Shown piece after piece: positions 14,293-40,537 of a stretch of 64,000 bases of DNA (positions are counted from its first letter, which is position 1; each line of letters opens with the position of its first letter). The notes beneath the pieces were generated by a model. That model made no database searches. It had not been told where the DNA came from and saw only the letters and a program-made list of their open reading frames with translations. A program made the position numbers and the translations under genes. The stretch comes from Powellomyces hirtus (Eukaryota; Chytridiomycota; Chytridiomycetes; Spizellomycetales; Powellomycetaceae): the NCBI GenBank assembly GCA_025526995.1, contig JAHLKG010000009.1:186001-250000 (forward strand), written 5' to 3'.

Positions 14293-15531
14293 ATGTCCTC
14301 TCTAAGCGGTCTGCTGCCCATTGAACAAAGCCCACCTCCGCCAGCACCCCAGTCGCCAACCCACTCGCAAACCGACGAGCACCCCATTTCACAGGACCCC
14401 CAATGTCAACGCCTGATTGAGCATCTCTCCCCCTTCATCCCACCCGAAGCCATCTCGCTCCTCTATGAAGCCGGCTATGAAACACTCGACATGATAAAGA
14501 CCCTCAACGTCGATCTCACCAACCCGCATAACGATCTCACCAGCGCGGAAGTATATACCAAGAGAACCTTGAAACCGGGCTACAAAAAGGTGAAATTGAG
14601 CATCGGACATGCCTCGACGTGTTTTGCACATTGGTTAATTCTGGTTTGATATTTCTGTGCCTTCCAATATACAGCTTATTATTCAGGTATGTTTGGAACC
14701 ATGATGTGCAGGGTATATCCCACATGTTTCTGAACGTGCTTTCTACCTGTTTTTGGGGGTGGGCCCAAAATCTAGTATGTGAATGCTGCGCCTTTTGACC
14801 CCGCGGTGCATGCGGATCCTACCAACATTTTCCACGGCGTTGGGTTTGATACGCCAACGACTAAACGTCGGCGAACGTCCGACAGCCACAGCAACGGCAC
14901 GAGTCCATATACCCCGTCGATGACCGTCCCCGCGTTGCTGCAATCGCTGGAGCGGCATCTGTGCGAGTCGCCAGTGACGCGGAACCTGCGCAAAGACATT
15001 GATTATAGAGTCGCAATTGGCGAGTCAGAACGAGGCATTGCCGAGGGTGTGTGGAGATGTATGATTTGCAATTCCCGGCCGGTTACCATTTCTCTGAGGA
15101 ATGGGGGACGACAGCCCCAGCTGTCCAACGTTAGCACGCATTTGAAGACGGTCAAGCATACCGCTGCTTCAGAGTACAAGAAGGCCAAGGCACAGCTCCT
15201 TGGCATGGGTAGCCTCCCGTCTGGAGATCCAGTGACCGTCGCAGTCACTGCCGCTCTGCAAAAACATTTCCAGGACCAGAAGCAGTTCCAGACTCAGCAG
15301 CAACAGCAGGCGTTACAGCAACAACAGCAGCAGCAGCAGCAACAGCAACCACAACAGCAACAACAGCAACAGCCTCAGCAACAGCAACGCGTGGAACTCA
15401 AGGCGTTTGAGCAGTTCACCCCGCCACCCAACCAGCGCGCCATCATTGCGCCAACGTCCGCGGGGGAAGCCGCCATGCAGCAATTGACACAGCAGCTCAC
15501 ACAGCAGCACGTCCAACCGCGGACGGGTTGA
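14293..15531 (+). CDS. Poly-Q protein with zinc-finger-like motif
   Basis: Three exons, 14293-14589, 14675-14686 and 14776-15531, give 354 residues in phase. The middle exon is only 12 nt and adds Leu-Ile-Ile-Gln. The central part carries CMIC followed about 22 residues later by HLKTVKH, a Cys2-His2 spacing loosely like BED or C2H2 fingers, next to a basic KRRR stretch that could direct nuclear entry. The C-terminal third is glutamine-rich, with runs of Q from about 15294 to 15390, then Pro-rich and Gln-rich sequence to the end. This composition fits a nuclear regulatory protein, but no named family is recognised. The ATG at 14293 follows an in-frame stretch that starts upstream with a non-canonical codon choice, so the exact start is fairly but not fully secure. 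Confidence 0.6.
15294..15396 (+). repeat. CAG/CAA tandem repeat encoding poly-glutamine
   Basis: Mixed CAG and CAA codons give long Gln runs interrupted by single Pro, Ala and Leu. CAA interruptions usually stabilise such repeats. Length may vary between strains. Confidence 0.9.
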
Positions 15532-16950: not shown

Positions 16951-19900
16951 ATGGACCAAAGCTCATGGGGTGCTCCGCCTCCCGCACAGTCCAGAAACCC
17001 CTGGGGTGCTCCCCCTGCCGGCACTGCGCCTGTTATGACGTCTGGCTGGGCCAACAATAATACTGGTGATCAGAAGGGAGGAATGGCGACGGGATGGGAT
17101 TCGGGCGAACCAACTGTAGTGGTCCAAGCCGGTTGGAGCAAGACTTCAGGGCCAGTATCGCGATCCCCTAATAAGCCTACACTTGAGAAGACAGTTGGGG
17201 CTGGATGGGTCATGCGAAAACCCGATCCTACTCCTGGCTGGGGCACTGCGCCCGCCGGGGAGCCTGTCAGTGGCCATAGCTGGGACAACCCCGCCAACAT
17301 ATCTGACCGATTTGCGAGTACCGGACGGAGAGCAGGAGCGGAAGCAGCTAACAAGCGTTTGAGCAGCAGCAGTGGCTGGGGCGCAAGCCCCGCAGCTGAA
17401 CAATTCTCGAGCGTCAGCGTCCGGACAGCAGCGAGCACGACACGCCGCCCCTCGCTGACTGAAGTGAGATGGGGAACGCCTTCTACGCCAGTGCAAAGTA
17501 GCGGCAGTGTGGGTTGGGGGACACCGGCAGCTGCGCCAACAAGGGGCGGTGATGCACCCTCGGGACCCCAATTGCGCCACGTAGTAAGCAACGACGGTTG
17601 GGCGAACCCTCCTCCTCGGGCTTCTGAAGATACAAGTTGGTTAAAAACACCGATCAAAACGTCCGTTAACACCGGTGGATGGTCTTCCACAGAGCCGGTT
17701 TCCTCCATTTCATCCAGAAATTGGGCTTCTAGTCGACCTTTGCCAGAGCCCGCCAGCAGCCAAGGACGGCCCCTCGATCGGCCGTTGTCCATGGCGTCTC
17801 AAGACGCGGGCTGGACGCAACCCGTGCGGCCAGCGTCGTCTATCCAAGACGGCTGGAACACACCCCAGCTGGAACCTCTTCAGCGACCAACTTCGTTCGC
17901 CAGTGACATGCGTAGTTTCCCCAAGCCAAAGGAAGCATCGCCGCCACGAGACAACGAAGGATGGGATGCTTCCCCCAACTGGGCTGGCAAAACGAGCAAC
18001 AGTGGTTGGAGCAGCCATCGGAACGCATTAACTAACAACGAAACTCAAAGTGCAGCATCACTCACCTACGGTATGGGAGGATGGAATAACCCCAAGCCTG
18101 CATCAGACTGGGGAACGCAGAGTGGCAATGGCTGGAATTCCGGCAATGGTTCCGCCAGCCACTCCAGAGAGAAATCGCTGGAAAAGAGTGTATATGTATC
18201 CCGTCCTCGTGAAGCGTCTCCTGAAGTTGTTCCCCTGTCTGCGCTGAAGCTCGACGATAGCTATGATGACGAAGATGCCGTCCCATCCAGTGTCGTTGAC
18301 CTTAGTGAGCTTATTTCGGAAAAGAATGCTCGATCTGCAGTTAGGAACCTTGAACAAGCGACGGCGCGTCGCCAATCGGACAAGCGACAGCAGGAGGAGC
18401 GCCATCCTCGGGACCTCCGCAAAGCAAAGTCCGCTCAAGTTCTTTCGGACAATCGCCATGATGACAGAGGCGGCCGTGGTGGCCGAGGTCGCGACGGGCG
18501 TGGCGGGCGTGACGGTCGTGACGATAGGAAAGATCGAGACAGAAGCTCGCGGCGAGTCCGTGGCGAAAGAAGTCATGGAAACCTCAGAGGTATTAATCGC
18601 TTTAGTATGCCCGTTCGTTCCATCTTCCTAACTCAACACCTTAGCAGAGGCGGATCCCCCATCTCGTGGAGCAAGAGACACCTCGGGAAGGAGAGAATCC
18701 GACGGCCACCGCGGTTTGGCCAAGCCCTCCAGTCGGTTGTTTGGTCGTCAGATGGACGAGGTCAACAGATCGTTTGAGATCATGGATGCAAAATCTCCTG
18801 ATCGCAGGCAGCCCCCAGAAGAGAAACCTGTGGTATGCAGCCTGCGCGTTGAGGCCGCCAGGCCGTATCCTAGTCTAATCTTATCCACGTTTGCAGACAA
18901 ATCGGAGATCCAACCGTGACTTGAGAGAAAAGCTCACCGGAAAGCCATCCAACCGTGATTTGAGAGAAACACTCAGTGGACACGGTACTGCGTCTGGTAT
19001 TCACGTTGTGAATTTGCCCACTTGGGTGCGTGTTCAAGAGGTACTCGAAGTATTTTCGGATTTTGGTGGAATCTTGAATGGTGAGCGTTTGATCACTTCT
19101 TGCCGCATCTCAGATTGATACTTACGTTGTATTCTCAAGTCGGCATCAAGCCTGCTGATGGTAACCAGCGGTCGTACGCGTTTGTCAATTACGAAAAACC
19201 TGGGGTTGCGGAACGTGCCGTACGGGTACTGAAGGATGAATTCTTCTTCGAAATGACACGCCCTTTGAATATGAAATTACAATATGATGACGCACAAAGT
19301 GCGCGTATGGATCAGGAATCTGGAAAACCTGCCAAAACGGAACGGAATCGTCACGCCGACAAGGAATCTGTTAAACTGGAGCCGGTCAAACAAGAACCTG
19401 CTAGACCTGCAGGCCAGAATCAGGATATTGATTACCAGACCTTGCATTTCCCGCTTCTTCCCATGTCAGTCACAACGGTAGGACGCCTTGTTCCGGTCTG
19501 ATTACCTTATTGGTTCCTGTCGCGGTGCTCATTGAATTTCGTATACTAGGAGGACTTAGAGCGCGTCTTTGCTGATAAGGGCGAGATCACACGAGTTCAC
19601 ATCGTCCCGCGTCCCAAAGAACGCAAGTCGTTTGCTTTCATTTCTTTCTCAACGGAGCGGGCTGCAGAAAGCGCGATGCGCATGGCTCAAAATGATAACC
19701 CTTTTGGTTTGAATGATCCTTCTCGAGTGGAGTATGCACACAAGTTGCGCAACCCGGCACCGGATGCAGCTCCTGGCAAGAAACCTTTCGAGGCGAAGGC
19801 GAAAAATGCAGACGCAGCGGGCAAAAGGGCCGATGCCGTCTCCCCCGAGGCAAGTCAGTCAACGGTCTCACCGGCGGAAGCAATGACAGAAGATAGCAGA

Positions 19901-21064
19901 TTGCAGAAGAGGCAATCGGGCGAGCCCGTAGCCAAAATCGCTGATTCGGCCGAAAGTCGGAGACGCGATTCGGACCGGGACAGCAGACATGCGGTCAATG
20001 TTCGGATACGACTCCCAGACGAGAATGAGGAAGCGCTTTTCCAAGGCATGGAAACCTTCGGGGCCATCAAAGGCCGCCTGGTCCTTGGCAAAACCAAAAG
20101 CAACATGCACCTCCATGCATTGGTGGTGTTTCACGATACCGACGCTGCCCACAACGCCGTGAAAGCCAAAACGTTCGATGCCGCCTATCCTCGGCAGCGA
20201 CTGATTGAAATCACGAACCTGTCTCCAAACGTTGGCGAAACCGATATTCGCGGGTTCTTTACTGGATGCGGGAAACTCCAGCACGTATACCTTTACCCAG
20301 CAAAGGACGACCAGCCGCCGCGAGCGGAATTGGAGTTCTCCCGAGGGGATGGCGCGGCCAAAGCATTGATTATGTGCCAATCTGAGGAATCGAAGGCTTT
20401 GGGTGACAATATTACGGCCATGTACTGGCGTGGATTTGACGCTCTGAAGGAGGACGCGAGAGAGCTGCCGACTCCAGAGAACCCGGCAAGGAGCAGAGAA
20501 CTCCGTGAAGACGATGGGTCAGTGGCCGTATCGTCGGAGGATGGTCACGAGGGTGCCGATGACTCCAAGCAGGACAGGGAAGAGGCTGATCAGAAGGTGG
20601 TTGCACCTGTGGTTCCGGTAGCAACAAAGGCAAAGATTACGAACCAAGAAATCAATGGTGGGAATCGATATGCGATTCTGTCTCCTGGTGATACCAGCAA
20701 CGGTGGTTCAAGCGCGGAAGACTCTAGCGAGAACGACGGACAGGGCCGTGCTCTGTCGGACGAAACCTCAAGCAGTGTTGAGGACGAAGAGAACGAGGAA
20801 AAGGAAGAAGGAGAGATCGATGAGGAGGAAGGGGCCGAGGAGGAGAAAGGGGAAGCTGCAGACAGTGAGCAGACTGATCGTGAGGCTACCGTGTGGTCAT
20901 CGGAGGATCGCGAGAGCGACAGTGTCGACTGTGACAGTGAAACTGTAAACATCACTGCGTGTGGCGAAACTGCTCCCAGAGAGGAAGTCAGCAGTGCCAT
21001 CGTTCCTCCAGAGCCCAAAGATGTTGTCGCTCCAGCTCAGCCCGCCGCTGGCAACACCCCGTGA
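16951..21064 (+). CDS. Trp/Gly-repeat protein with RNA-recognition domains
   Basis: Five exons (16951-18589, 18648-18832, 18897-19080, 19140-19477, 19550-21064) give 1286 residues in phase. Residues 1 to about 400 carry some 23 tryptophans, nearly all next to Gly or in a small-residue setting (SSWGAPP, NPWGAPP, PGWGTAP, SGWGASP, VGWGTP, SDWGTQSG), in disordered Ser/Pro/Asn-rich sequence. This is the look of the GW/WG Argonaute-binding regions of GW182 and plant NRPE1/SPT5L proteins. An RGG-type basic stretch follows near 505-535. Four RRM-like units come next: GIHVVNLPTWVRVQEVLEVF (about 640), one with KSFAFISFS (about 800), a degenerate one with VNVRIRLPDENEEAL (about 930) and LIEITNLSPNVGETDIRGFF (about 1000). 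The tail is highly acidic. A role in small-RNA or mRNA control is inference; the domain order is what I see. Confidence 0.8.
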
Positions 21065-36172: not shown

Positions 36173-39100
36173 ATGGACGCTTCTCGCAAAAGCGACGCAA
36201 AGAGCTTCCAGGTGCATGACGTCGCTCAGGTGCCTGACGTCGCTGACTCTTCACCACCTCCACAACAACGATATATCGTCACGGTACAGTTGCCCTGCGT
36301 GTTTGTGTGCAGCTTGTTGCACCTTTCATTGATCTCACCTCGTGCGTGCGTATCCACAGGCCTTTAAAAATCCGTTCACATTCGTATGGGTGTCATGGCT
36401 GTCTCCGCTCATGACGCTCGGCTACAAAAAGACTCTGGACCCCGAGGACATGTATCTCATTCCAGAGGGCAATGCGGCAGCCGATATGGCCAAGATCCTC
36501 GAACCCTTCTGGGCAAAGGCCGAAGCCCACAGAAACGCCCCCGAGAAAAATCCTCGTCCGTCCCTCTTCAAAATAGTCTTTACCCCATTCTGGCGCCGAT
36601 GGTATGAACGCTCGTCTATGGCGTGCTCCAACTTTTCCTAATGCCAATCTCTTGACAGGGTTTTTGCCATCTGCCTCAATCTCATGGCAGTCGGATGCGA
36701 GCTCGCCGTGCCAGTCTTTCTCAAACAGATCTTGCTGTTCCTCACACCAGCAGGCGCTCCAGGACGGGGCGAGCTCTTCCTTGACAGCGGCATTGGCCTT
36801 GCCATCTGCATTTTCCTCCTGCAGGCCGGACTTTCCGTGTTCCAGCGAACGGCCGAACAGCTTGTTAGGGAGGTCATCATGAATGTCCGAACAATCATCA
36901 TTGGATCCGTCTACGAAAAGAGCTTGCGTCTCAGCGGTGAAGCATCTCGCGAATTTACCAATGGAAGCGTCATGAACATGATCAATGTCGACTCGGAAAC
37001 AATCATGGTCGCCATCTTCTTCATGAACTTTCTTGTGGGTAGTCCGTTCCAAGTCATAATCGCAATCGGTCTTCTCTTCCAAAATCTGGGAGTCCTTCCA
37101 GTGCTGGCGTCTATTGCTGTCATGGTGGTCCTGGTGGCTATCCAGGCCCCCTTCATGGTGTACGCCAAGAGAAGTCGAGTCACGATTCTGAGCGCTGGTG
37201 ATGTTCGCGTTGCCGGAGTGCGGGAGATTCTCTATGGTATTAAGATAATCAAGCTACGAGCTTGGGAAGAGTTCTTTGTCGACAAGGTTGCAAAGTTGCG
37301 ACAAAAGCAGTTGACGGCATTGAAAGGATCATATGTTGCGTTCGGTGGTTTCATCACATTGGCTCAGGTAACGTATATCTTTTTGTGCTGGCGCAGTCAC
37401 CGACCCAAACCTCAAGCTGACACCAATGCCCTTATCAGTTGACGCCTATCATGATGCCAATTGCCGCATTCATAGTGTACAGTGCGAAGAACGGGGGCGT
37501 TGACGCCACTGTGGTGTTCCCCGCCATCGTTCTATTCAACATCCTGATCGCACCGATGCTCGATCTCCCTCAAGGGCTCTCGTTCATCATTGCTGCCACT
37601 GTCAGCTGGAAGAGGATAAACAAACTTCTGCAAGCTTCCGAATCAAAACCTCTCCAAATCACTCCCGTCACATCGGGATCGACCACGAAGGGCCCCGGGG
37701 ATGACATTGTCATCTCTGATGCAACGTACAAGTGGGAAGTTGTACTGGCCACGGAGAAAGACAAGGACAAGAAAGAGACCAAAAAGGAAAAGAAGGAGCG
37801 AAAACGCAGTGCGAGCTCTTCCAAGGCAAAATCTGAAGCAAATTCTTCGCCGCCCGACTCAAGTTCGGCCGAAGGAAGTGCTGAAACACTGGTCGAGGAG
37901 AAGAAAGAAATCGAACCTCTGTTCCGAAATCTGAACCTGACGTTCCAGAAGGGTGCGCTCACCGCAGTCGTTGGAGCTGTCGGCAGTGGCAAGAGTTCGT
38001 TGCTCGGAGCAATCATCGGGGAGATGACTCAGCTTAGCGGAAAGGTAATCGACACCAATCATTAGTCTCATGTATTGCACGTCATGCTAATGCGTTATGT
38101 CGCGCAGACGTCGATTCACGGAAGCATTGCATATTCGGCTCAGCAGCCATGGATACAGACCGGAAGCGTCAAGGATAACATCGTGTTCCAGCACGCGTAC
38201 GACGAGCGCCGCCTCAGCGAGGCTGTACGCGTGTGCGGACTTGAGTCCGATGTACGACAACTGTCAGCTGGCATGGACACTGAGATCGGAGAGAAGGGTG
38301 TCAATCTGTCTGGGGGGCAAAAAGCACGAGTTGCATTGGCTCGTGCCGTTTACGAGGATTGCGATATCTACCTATTGGATGATCCCATCAGCGCTCTCGA
38401 TGCCCAAGTCGGCGCTAAAGTTTACAGCGAGTGCATAAAAGGCTCTCTCGCCGGCAAGACTCGAGTGCTTGTTACGCATCATCTGCACTTGCTGCAAGAT
38501 GTTGATCGAATCGTGGTTTTGGAAGACGGCGCCGTGGCCGAAGAAGGAACATTCCAAACCTTGCTTGCAAAGAACGGTCTGTTCACCGAGCTGATGAAAG
38601 ATTACCACCTGGACGATCCAGAGCAGGAGGAAGAGGAGAAGGACCAAGTCGAGAAGGCGCAAGCCGCCAAAAGCGATGAGAGGGAGAAACCCAATGACGC
38701 GGGTGGTCTGATCGCTGAGGAAGAACGCGTTCAGGGAGCTGTCCAGTGGCCAACTTACAAGGCCTACATAATTGGAGCCGGGGGTGTCACATACGTGTTC
38801 GCCGTTGTGTCTATGAGTGCGATAGCGCAGGGAGTTACGATCATGAGTCAATACTGGTTGTCCTGGTGGTCCGAGAGAAAACTGGACATTGGAGATAGTA
38901 GCTACCTTCTTGGCTATGCAATGCTGGGCATTGGCATCGCAGTCACGACAACGTTGGTGAACGTTGCCTTGTTCTTTGGTAACTACGCCGTTGCTAAATC
39001 CATTCACCACCGAGCTTTCAAACAGCTCCTTCGCTCACCGATGGGATTCTTCGATACCCAGCCCATTGGGCGTCTTCTCAACCGATTCACAAAGGACATT

Positions 39101-40537
39101 GACTCGGTCGATCAGCGACTCTGGGGTGACATTCTCACCATGTGCATTTCGGTCTCGCAAATCGTCGGTGCCATTGTGCTGCTAGCCATCGTGTCACCTT
39201 ACATGTTGATCGCCTTCGTCCCTGTCGTCACCCTGTACTTTTACGTCCTTCAATACTACCGTGCAACCTTCCGCGAACTGAAACGACTCGACAGCGTGCT
39301 CCGATCTCCACTTTACGCCCAAGTTAGTGAAAGTTTGACGGGCATTTCCACGATCCGCGCCTACAAGGCCGAAGACCGGTTCATCCAGCGCCAACGAGCT
39401 TTGATCGACGTGAGCAATTCGCCTTACTACCTCATGTTCTCCGCAACGGTGTGGATCGGAATCCGCATCGAACTCGTCAGTTGCTTGATCGTCTTTGCGC
39501 TGGCTATGCTCGGCGTGGAGGGCGTCATTGCAGCCCCTCTCGTCGGATTGGCGTTCACGTACGCAGTTCCCTTGACGCAGTTTATCAACATGTTGCTCCG
39601 TTCGTTTGCGAGTCTGGAATCGGACATGAATTCCATTGAGCGGCTGGAAGAATATGCGGTCGACATTGCGGAAGAGGCCCCCGCCTACCAGGCCAACGAC
39701 CCGGCGCCGGGCGTCTGGCCCACCGCAGGAGCAATCGACATCTCCCACCTCGAACTCCGATACCCGTCGCGACCCGACCACGCCGTCATCCAGGATCTCT
39801 CGCTCTCGGTCAAACCTGGTGAAAAGGTCGGCATTGTCGGTCGCACCGGGTCCGGAAAAAGTACTCTCCTGACTGCCCTGTTCCGAATGGTCGAGCCGTC
39901 CCAAGGTTCCATCACCATCGACGGCCAAGACATCTCGAAACTCGGACTCTGCACCCTCCGTCGCGCCGTCGACATTATCCCGCAAGACCCGACCTTGTTT
40001 ACCGGCACCATCCGCAACAACCTCGACGTCGAGTCTCAGCACTCGGATGCCGAGATCTGGGAGCTCCTCGATCGCATCAACCTCAAAACCTACGTCACAT
40101 CTCTCCCCGAGAAACTCGACGCACCCGTCGCGGAACAAGGCGAGAACTTGTCGGTTGGCCAACGCCAGCTGATCTGTCTCGGCCGCGCCATGTTGAAGAA
40201 ACCCGCCATTCTGGTCATGGACGAAGCGACCGCCGCGATTGACGGCGCCGCCGATGAACGCATCCAATCACTCATCCGCTCCCAGTTCTCCACCTCCACC
40301 ATCCTCTGCATTGCCCACCGCCTCAACACCATTGCCGATTTCGACCGCGTGCTCGTCATGGACGCCGGCCGCAAAGCCGAATTTGACACCCCGCACAAGC
40401 TCTTCCAGAACCCGCACTCGCTCTTTTCGCAGTTGGCGGATGCGACGGGGGTAGCCAACTCGCAGCTGCTGAGACAAGTCGCCGCCGAACATGACCGCCA
40501 GACGACGCTCGAAAAAGAACAGAGAGCAGCAAACTGA
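36173..40537 (+). CDS. ABCC-type (MRP-like) ABC transporter, short form
   Basis: Five exons (36173-36283, 36360-36601, 36659-37367, 37439-38044, 38108-40537) give 1365 residues arranged TMD1-NBD1-TMD2-NBD2, with no TMD0. NBD1 has Walker [10 protein letters not shown], signature LSGGQ and Walker B IYLLDDP; NBD2 has [14 protein letters not shown] and ILVMDEAT. The Asp after Walker B in NBD1, in place of the catalytic Glu, and the shortened NBD1 are typical of ABCC proteins, in which site 1 hydrolyses poorly. The start [12 protein letters not shown] leads to [17 protein letters not shown], the cytosolic elbow typical of MRPs. A long Lys/Glu/Ser linker sits before NBD1 (about residues 455-510) and another after it. 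The likely role is ATP-driven export of conjugated organic anions or drugs, or vacuolar uptake; the substrate cannot be read from sequence. Confidence 0.92.

Follow-up and report, generated by a model that had tools for sequence, protein, structure and literature searches.

Our analysis points to a family of chytrid proteins that combine tryptophan-rich WG repeats with several RNA recognition motifs (RRMs) and that may work as an Argonaute-hook scaffold. The member studied here is encoded in a stretch of 64,000 nucleotides from Powellomyces hirtus (assembly GCA_025526995.1, contig JAHLKG010000009.1, positions 186,001 to 250,000, forward strand), which we refer to as the window. Several elements of the case are direct observations: the gene, the order of its domains, the conservation of its tryptophan pattern, the presence of RNA interference (RNAi) genes in the same genome, and, in three of the six Argonautes, the retention of pocket residues. 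From these sequences we favor a role resembling that of an Argonaute hook. We infer the binding of Argonaute, and for the scaffold as a whole our confidence stops just short of even. The original prediction, made from the letters of the window, had described a GW182-like protein that could be an independent or ancestral Argonaute hook of early fungi, and that interpretation is partly supported.

The gene begins with an ATG at position 16951 and, after removal of four GT-AG introns, reaches the end of its stop codon at 21064, exactly the limits that had been predicted. The spliced product of 1287 residues is a letter-for-letter match to NCBI protein DFJ77DRAFT_548444 of P. hirtus. Furthermore, the start codon is supported because two orthologues, from Geranomyces michiganensis and Gaertneriomyces, also begin with M-D-x-x-x-W-G, a start that is not found in the other five. 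The predicted count of about 23 tryptophans in the first 400 residues proved accurate. All 23 have a small neighbor (G, S, A, T, N, or D) and 19 have a glycine neighbor, compared with 4.9 ± 1.9 glycine-flanked tryptophans (maximum, 14) when these 400 residues were shuffled 10,000 times. Only three tryptophans lie beyond residue 400. The RG-rich stretch, the four RRM-like units, and the acidic tail were likewise where the prediction had placed them (Table 1). Spacing between consecutive tryptophans is at least 10 residues in 18 of 22 gaps, and 10 or more residues is the distance given for tryptophan pairs of TNRC6 (PMC9262622). Glutamine density reaches a maximum of 8 per 100 residues in the P. 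hirtus protein and up to 19 in orthologues, with no cutoff set beforehand.

The family comprises eight proteins, all from Chytridiomycetes. Besides P. hirtus, the Spizellomycetales are represented by G. michiganensis, Geranomyces variabilis, and Gaertneriomyces sp., the Rhizophlyctidales by Borealophlyctis nickersoniae, the Chytridiales by Dinochytrium kinnereticum and Irineochytrium annulatum, and the Chytridiomycetes incertae sedis by Quaeritorhiza haematococci; the Borealophlyctis and Irineochytrium proteins are marked partial. Three protein searches, which reached relatives sharing exact five-residue words, with about 8,000 candidates scored per search, returned 10 distinct proteins. None of the 10 was a family homolog from outside the Chytridiomycetes, and no Cryptococcus protein was among them, but owing to the limited reach of this search the absence of the family from other lineages cannot be claimed. 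Two of the 10, a protein resembling poly(A)-binding protein (PABP) and a Caenorhabditis protein, matched through generic RRMs and were dropped. Within the P. hirtus genome (29.3 Mb, 60 contigs), residues 1 to 402 matched only their own gene at E values up to 10, with two candidates scored. The single other whole-protein match, to a multi-RRM gene (C14; E = 1.4e-6), was rejected as a paralog of the WG protein, as the frames read there carry no WG repeats.

The tryptophan-rich N terminus accompanies RRM1 and RRM2 in six of the seven orthologues, across several chytrid orders. The prediction had named loss of the tryptophans alongside retained RRMs as an outcome that would undo it, and the family does not show that pattern; in the seventh orthologue, from G. 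variabilis, the gene model starts after the region. This model was excluded from the alignment and motif counts, leaving seven sequences to compare. Their N termini hold 23 (P. hirtus), 18 (G. michiganensis), 14 (Quaeritorhiza), 14 (Gaertneriomyces), 14 (Borealophlyctis), 12 (Dinochytrium), and 13 (Irineochytrium) tryptophans. Glycine-flanked tryptophans exceeded shuffled expectation in each of the seven (P = 0.0000 to 0.0096; 5000 shuffles), and tryptophans with any small neighbor did so in six (P < 0.05).

Within the N-terminal half, no residue is better conserved than tryptophan, whose conservation exceeds that in shuffled controls. Specifically, the fraction of identical aligned pairs was 0.82 for tryptophan, 0.49 for proline, and 0.37 for glycine, with lower values for other residues. 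Because aligners pull tryptophans together, we made shuffled alignment controls (MAFFT, 30 runs each). Tryptophan identity was 0.39 ± 0.08 (maximum, 0.58) when all residues were shuffled and 0.57 ± 0.08 (maximum, 0.68) when tryptophan spacings were permuted and the rest was shuffled. Eight alignment columns contained tryptophan in all seven sequences, compared with 1.8 ± 1.3 (maximum, 5) in the spacing-permuted control. In addition, five species (Quaeritorhiza, Gaertneriomyces, Borealophlyctis, Dinochytrium, and Irineochytrium) share two exact motifs, WDSVPG and W[DA]PLPP, each of which arose by chance in 0 to 2 of 5000 shuffles. Every one of the seven sequences has a single match to a looser pattern, W[DNE]x[SV]Px[WV], and so did 11 to 24 of 5000 shuffles (24 for the P. 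hirtus N terminus); this pattern was drawn up post hoc, from sequences that had already been inspected. In the alignment, the matching pair in P. hirtus, WDASPNW, lies outside the columns where other species have WDSVPGW.

The C-terminal half is organized around the RRMs. Four stretches of the P. hirtus protein match Pfam RRM_1; across the five family members scanned with Pfam, three have four such stretches and each of the two Geranomyces proteins has two. Identity to the Gaertneriomyces protein is 43 to 66% over RRM1 and 33 to 52% over RRM2, which places both among the best-conserved parts. Aromatic residues of RNP1 are kept in RRM2 of all eight proteins and in RRM1 of six, the exceptions being the two Geranomyces proteins. 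Ahead of RRM1, a short motif (RLFxRxxxEVN) has RLF, R, and EVN invariant in all eight members within variable surroundings. We modeled the Gaertneriomyces orthologue with AlphaFold2, using an alignment of eight sequences (mean predicted local distance difference test [pLDDT], 50; predicted template modeling score, 0.32). The model contains RRM-like units at approximately residues 396 to 472, 520 to 593, 641 to 694, and 707 to 780, mostly with pLDDT of 70 to 90, although the third has no clear last strand. Residues 1 to 324 have pLDDT below 50 almost throughout, so that the N terminus, as read from this orthologue, is predicted to be disordered. A Foldseek search with the model returned Prp24, raver1, PABP, and other generic multi-RRM proteins at low TM-scores, with no specific relative among the best 50 matches.

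The prediction had proposed checking the rest of the genome for Argonaute, Dicer, and RNA-dependent RNA polymerase (RdRP), and had held that a lack of Argonaute would count against it. P. hirtus has Argonaute genes and RdRP loci, together with Dicer-like loci. Of seven places with Piwi-domain matches, six are Argonaute genes (labeled here C1, C2, C4, C5, C6, and C18). RNase III matches are paired at three loci (C6, C17, and C3), as in Dicers, with a single match at C27; the Dicer-like assignment is made from the paired domains only. RdRP matches fall at three loci. A published study recorded Dicer and Argonaute in every chytrid that it examined, with RdRP missing from several Rhizophydiales (PMC9926174). 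The PIWI part of the C2 Argonaute matches human AGO2 (E = 1e-82) far better than Neurospora QDE-2 (E = 4e-36). The seventh Piwi match (C24:371000-374200) gives off-frame translations that by eye resemble the C5 Argonaute; it looks like a decayed copy and, having no clean frame, was omitted from the comparison of pockets.

Tryptophans of hook proteins are received by pockets in the PIWI domain, and we asked which Argonautes retain the corresponding residues. Four pocket residues of ALG-1 presumably map to K660, E695, P590, and F659 of human AGO2, given that the spacings agree, and we added AGO2 positions 654, 694, and 698 to the set on our own assumption. Sequences were aligned to 117 residues of human AGO2 and compared at positions 654, 659, 660, 691, 694, 695, 698, and 700. 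The ALG-1 residues are reported as K803, E838, P733, and F802 (PMC5147811), and C691 and P700 are reported for AGO2 itself (PMC9262622). The human string at the eight positions is YFKCLEYP. Three Argonautes have similar strings (C6, YSKCLEYP; C18, YRKCIEYP; C2, YAKCLDYP) and all carry K660, C691, an acidic residue (E or D) at 695, Y698, and P700. This full set is not found in C5 (IIGAVKYP), C1 (YVYM-KEA), or C4 (RVWF-RDT). Since proline at 590 is present in five of the six (the exception is C1), that position is of no use for separating the groups. Three Argonautes thus appear to keep most of the tryptophan-pocket set and three to have lost it, which fits the partner of a hook protein but is not proof of one.

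A number of results weigh against an Argonaute hook. Chief among them is the G. variabilis model, which has no tryptophan before RRM1. It starts where the tryptophan region of G. michiganensis ends, and the region may have been lost from the annotation, possibly through a missed exon, or from the gene itself. In Quaeritorhiza, tryptophans with a small neighbor were not above shuffled expectation (P = 0.129), and the exact WDSVPG and W[DA]PLPP motifs are found neither in the P. hirtus protein nor in that of G. michiganensis. The profile search that the prediction had suggested came out negative: Pfam found no Ago_hook (PF10427) in the five members scanned, with HMMER filters that drop most matches above an E value of about 0.1. 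The pocket evidence has its own weaknesses, in that all six Argonautes lack F659 and the retention of 7, 6, and 6 of eight positions (hypergeometric P = 0.07, 0.16, and 0.23) is, taken one by one, not above overall similarity. Moreover, tryptophan-rich disordered repeats also occur in proteins that are not known to be Argonaute hooks, such as the C-terminal domain of fission-yeast Spt5. Finally, species lacking Dicer have been reported in several phyla, including Chytridiomycota (PMC12663654).

Comparison with known systems clarifies what kind of protein this might be. The predicted resemblance to GW182 holds for layout, as both GW182/TNRC6 and the chytrid protein have a tryptophan-rich, mostly disordered N terminus, an RRM, and an RNAi setting, but it does not extend to kinship. 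A true GW182/TNRC6 orthologue in fungi is highly improbable, even though the order of WG region and then RRM is similar from afar. Pfam found no UBA or other GW182 domain in the five members scanned, the chytrid protein has four RRMs with the RNP1 aromatics of RRM2 kept throughout the family, and a loose pattern for PAM2 found none in the P. hirtus protein. The loosest form of that pattern matches four of the eight family members, probably by chance. Among the 60 of 62 PDB sequence matches listed, none has a GW182 or TNRC6 name. We rejected GW182 homology on domain content, the PAM2 pattern, and RRM number.

The original prediction was silent on the WG/GW proteins already known from fungal RNAi, namely, Cryptococcus GWO1 and GWC1 and fission-yeast Tas3. 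Tas3 carries a WG hook and is part of a chromatin complex. Compared by description only, it resembles the proposed scaffold as a fungal partner of Argonaute, in the RNA-induced transcriptional silencing (RITS) complex of Schizosaccharomyces pombe. Plant NRPE1 and SPT6L are attached to the transcription machinery and are not known to have an RRM array. They are described as having an Argonaute-hook domain (PMC10991848), which is what we propose for the chytrid N terminus. GWO1 and GWC1 of Cryptococcus are WG/GW proteins tied to RNAi, and Gwo1 (CNAG_00520) of Cryptococcus neoformans occurs with Ago1 in an RNA silencing complex of P bodies (PMC4778953, PMC6643885). Gwo1, labeled "GW182-like" in its description (PMC4778953), is similar to the chytrid protein as a fungal WG/GW protein tied to Argonaute, again by description only. 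Neurospora SAD-7 likewise acts in fungal RNA silencing and contains an RRM, and its N-terminal half is the more variable one, but it is described as having one RRM, which lacks two usual RNP aromatics, and homologs in ascomycetes, and the main text of that report does not mention tryptophan (PMC5555490). The chytrid protein, in contrast, has four RRMs and an aromatic RNP1 in RRM2 of every member.

Other explanations deserve consideration. The tryptophans could dock deadenylation machinery (CCR4-NOT, PAN2-PAN3) directly, making the protein an Argonaute-free posttranscriptional adaptor whose RRMs choose the mRNA. GW182 uses tryptophans for its contacts with CCR4-NOT, and four RRMs, two of them with RNP1 aromatics, could give such an adaptor its own grip on RNA. 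There is also precedent in the silencing domain of GW182, which is reported to contact PABP and CCR4-NOT and to be active without Argonaute when tethered (PMC5785596). The lack of a PAM2-like motif in the P. hirtus protein speaks against this role, and we regard it as unlikely, if credible. A similarly modest likelihood attaches to an RNA-binding protein that forms condensates, in which tryptophan, RG, and acidic tracts would serve as stickers of RNA granules with no dedicated tryptophan-pocket partner. Its RG-rich and acidic tracts, the long N terminus predicted to be disordered in the orthologue, and the missing exact motifs in P. hirtus would suit that explanation. Yet the tryptophan columns exceed shuffled controls and exact motifs recur in five of seven species, which is more than composition alone asks. 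Furthermore, phenylalanine and tyrosine, the usual other stickers of condensates, are nearly absent from the N terminus (6 F and 3 Y among 604 residues). The conservation of tryptophan therefore weighs against a condensate former but not against an adaptor of the CCR4-NOT type.

It is also conceivable, but quite improbable, that the protein is a nuclear hook linked to chromatin or transcription that guides transcriptional silencing. NRPE1, SPT6L (PMC10991848), and Tas3 in RITS would be nonanimal precedents, whereas Pfam shows RRMs only, with no transcription-elongation or polymerase domain. Among 19 neighboring open reading frames scanned with Pfam (of 35 of at least 200 amino acids), there were no RNAi genes, and those with matches encode ordinary proteins (MFS sugar transporter, kinase, M16 and M1 peptidases, 3-HAO, phosphodiesterase, and LRR). 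Elsewhere in the window, an open reading frame with a long glutamine-rich run (14776-15531) has a weak Pfam match to TFIIA, below the cutoff, and an ABC transporter gene with several exons occupies 36642-40537.

Table 1. Features of the WG-repeat, multi-RRM gene of P. hirtus, in window coordinates
Feature	Residues	Position	Strand	Basis and remarks
Whole gene, five exons		16951..21064	+	Splice model; 1287 aa; equals NCBI protein; self match exon by exon
Exons		16951-18589, 18645-18832, 18897-19080, 19140-19477, 19550-21064	+	Splice model
Four GT-AG introns		18590-18644, 18833-18896, 19081-19139, 19478-19549	+	Splice model
Trp-rich (WG/GW) region	1-395	16951..18135	+	Trp count; disorder predicted in Gaertneriomyces counterpart
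Close Trp pair WDASPNW	338-344	17962..17982	+	Fits loose pattern W[DNE]x[SV]Px[WV]
RG-rich stretch	505-545	18463..18585	+	Composition
Conserved motif RLFGRQMDEVN	577-587	18734..18766	+	Alignment of eight family members
RRM1	about 641-718	18990..19282	+	Pfam; split by intron 19081-19139; aromatic RNP1 in P. hirtus; limits approximate
RRM2	about 769-847	19433..19741	+	Pfam; split by intron 19478-19549; aromatic RNP1 in 8/8; limits approximate
RRM3-like unit	about 930-994	19988..20182	+	Without canonical RNP1 aromatics; absent from both Geranomyces models; limits approximate
RRM4-like unit	about 999-1074	20195..20422	+	Without canonical RNP1 aromatics; absent from both Geranomyces models; limits approximate
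Acidic tail core	1180-1235	20738..20905	+	Composition; 43% Asp+Glu

As an Argonaute-hook scaffold, the P. hirtus protein may serve as a fungal adaptor between RNA and the proteins of small-RNA silencing. Its disordered N terminus would offer many tryptophans, mostly at least 10 residues apart, to the PIWI pockets of those Argonautes that bear them, while RRM1 and RRM2 would hold RNA, either the target or another. RRM3 and RRM4, like the tails, could bind further partners. In this way the protein would gather pocket-bearing Argonautes on target RNA, other disordered parts would pass that RNA to effectors, and the outcome would be silencing. If it does bind Argonaute, then by analogy it would most likely work like GW182 or Cryptococcus Gwo1. 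A bolder proposal is that chytrids built their own multivalent scaffold separately from GW182, one that holds Argonaute and RNA simultaneously and is paired with Argonautes that kept their pockets while paralogs lost theirs. We consider this possible, but doubtful.

WG/GW scaffolds decide how Argonaute acts once a target has been found. To our knowledge, few of them are known from fungi (Gwo1, Gwc1, and Tas3). In the open-licence literature we found no report of a WG/GW scaffold in chytrids, nor of the P. hirtus protein or its family. Fungal WG proteins in RNAi are thus an already known kind, and it is the build with four RRMs, together with the chytrid family that shares it, for which that literature yielded no description. 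With some of the six P. hirtus Argonautes seeming to have kept the pocket and others to have lost it, a ready test is available inside one genome. If the proposed role is true, the fusion of a hook with several RRMs would differ in build from GW182 and would point to more than one origin of WG adaptors.

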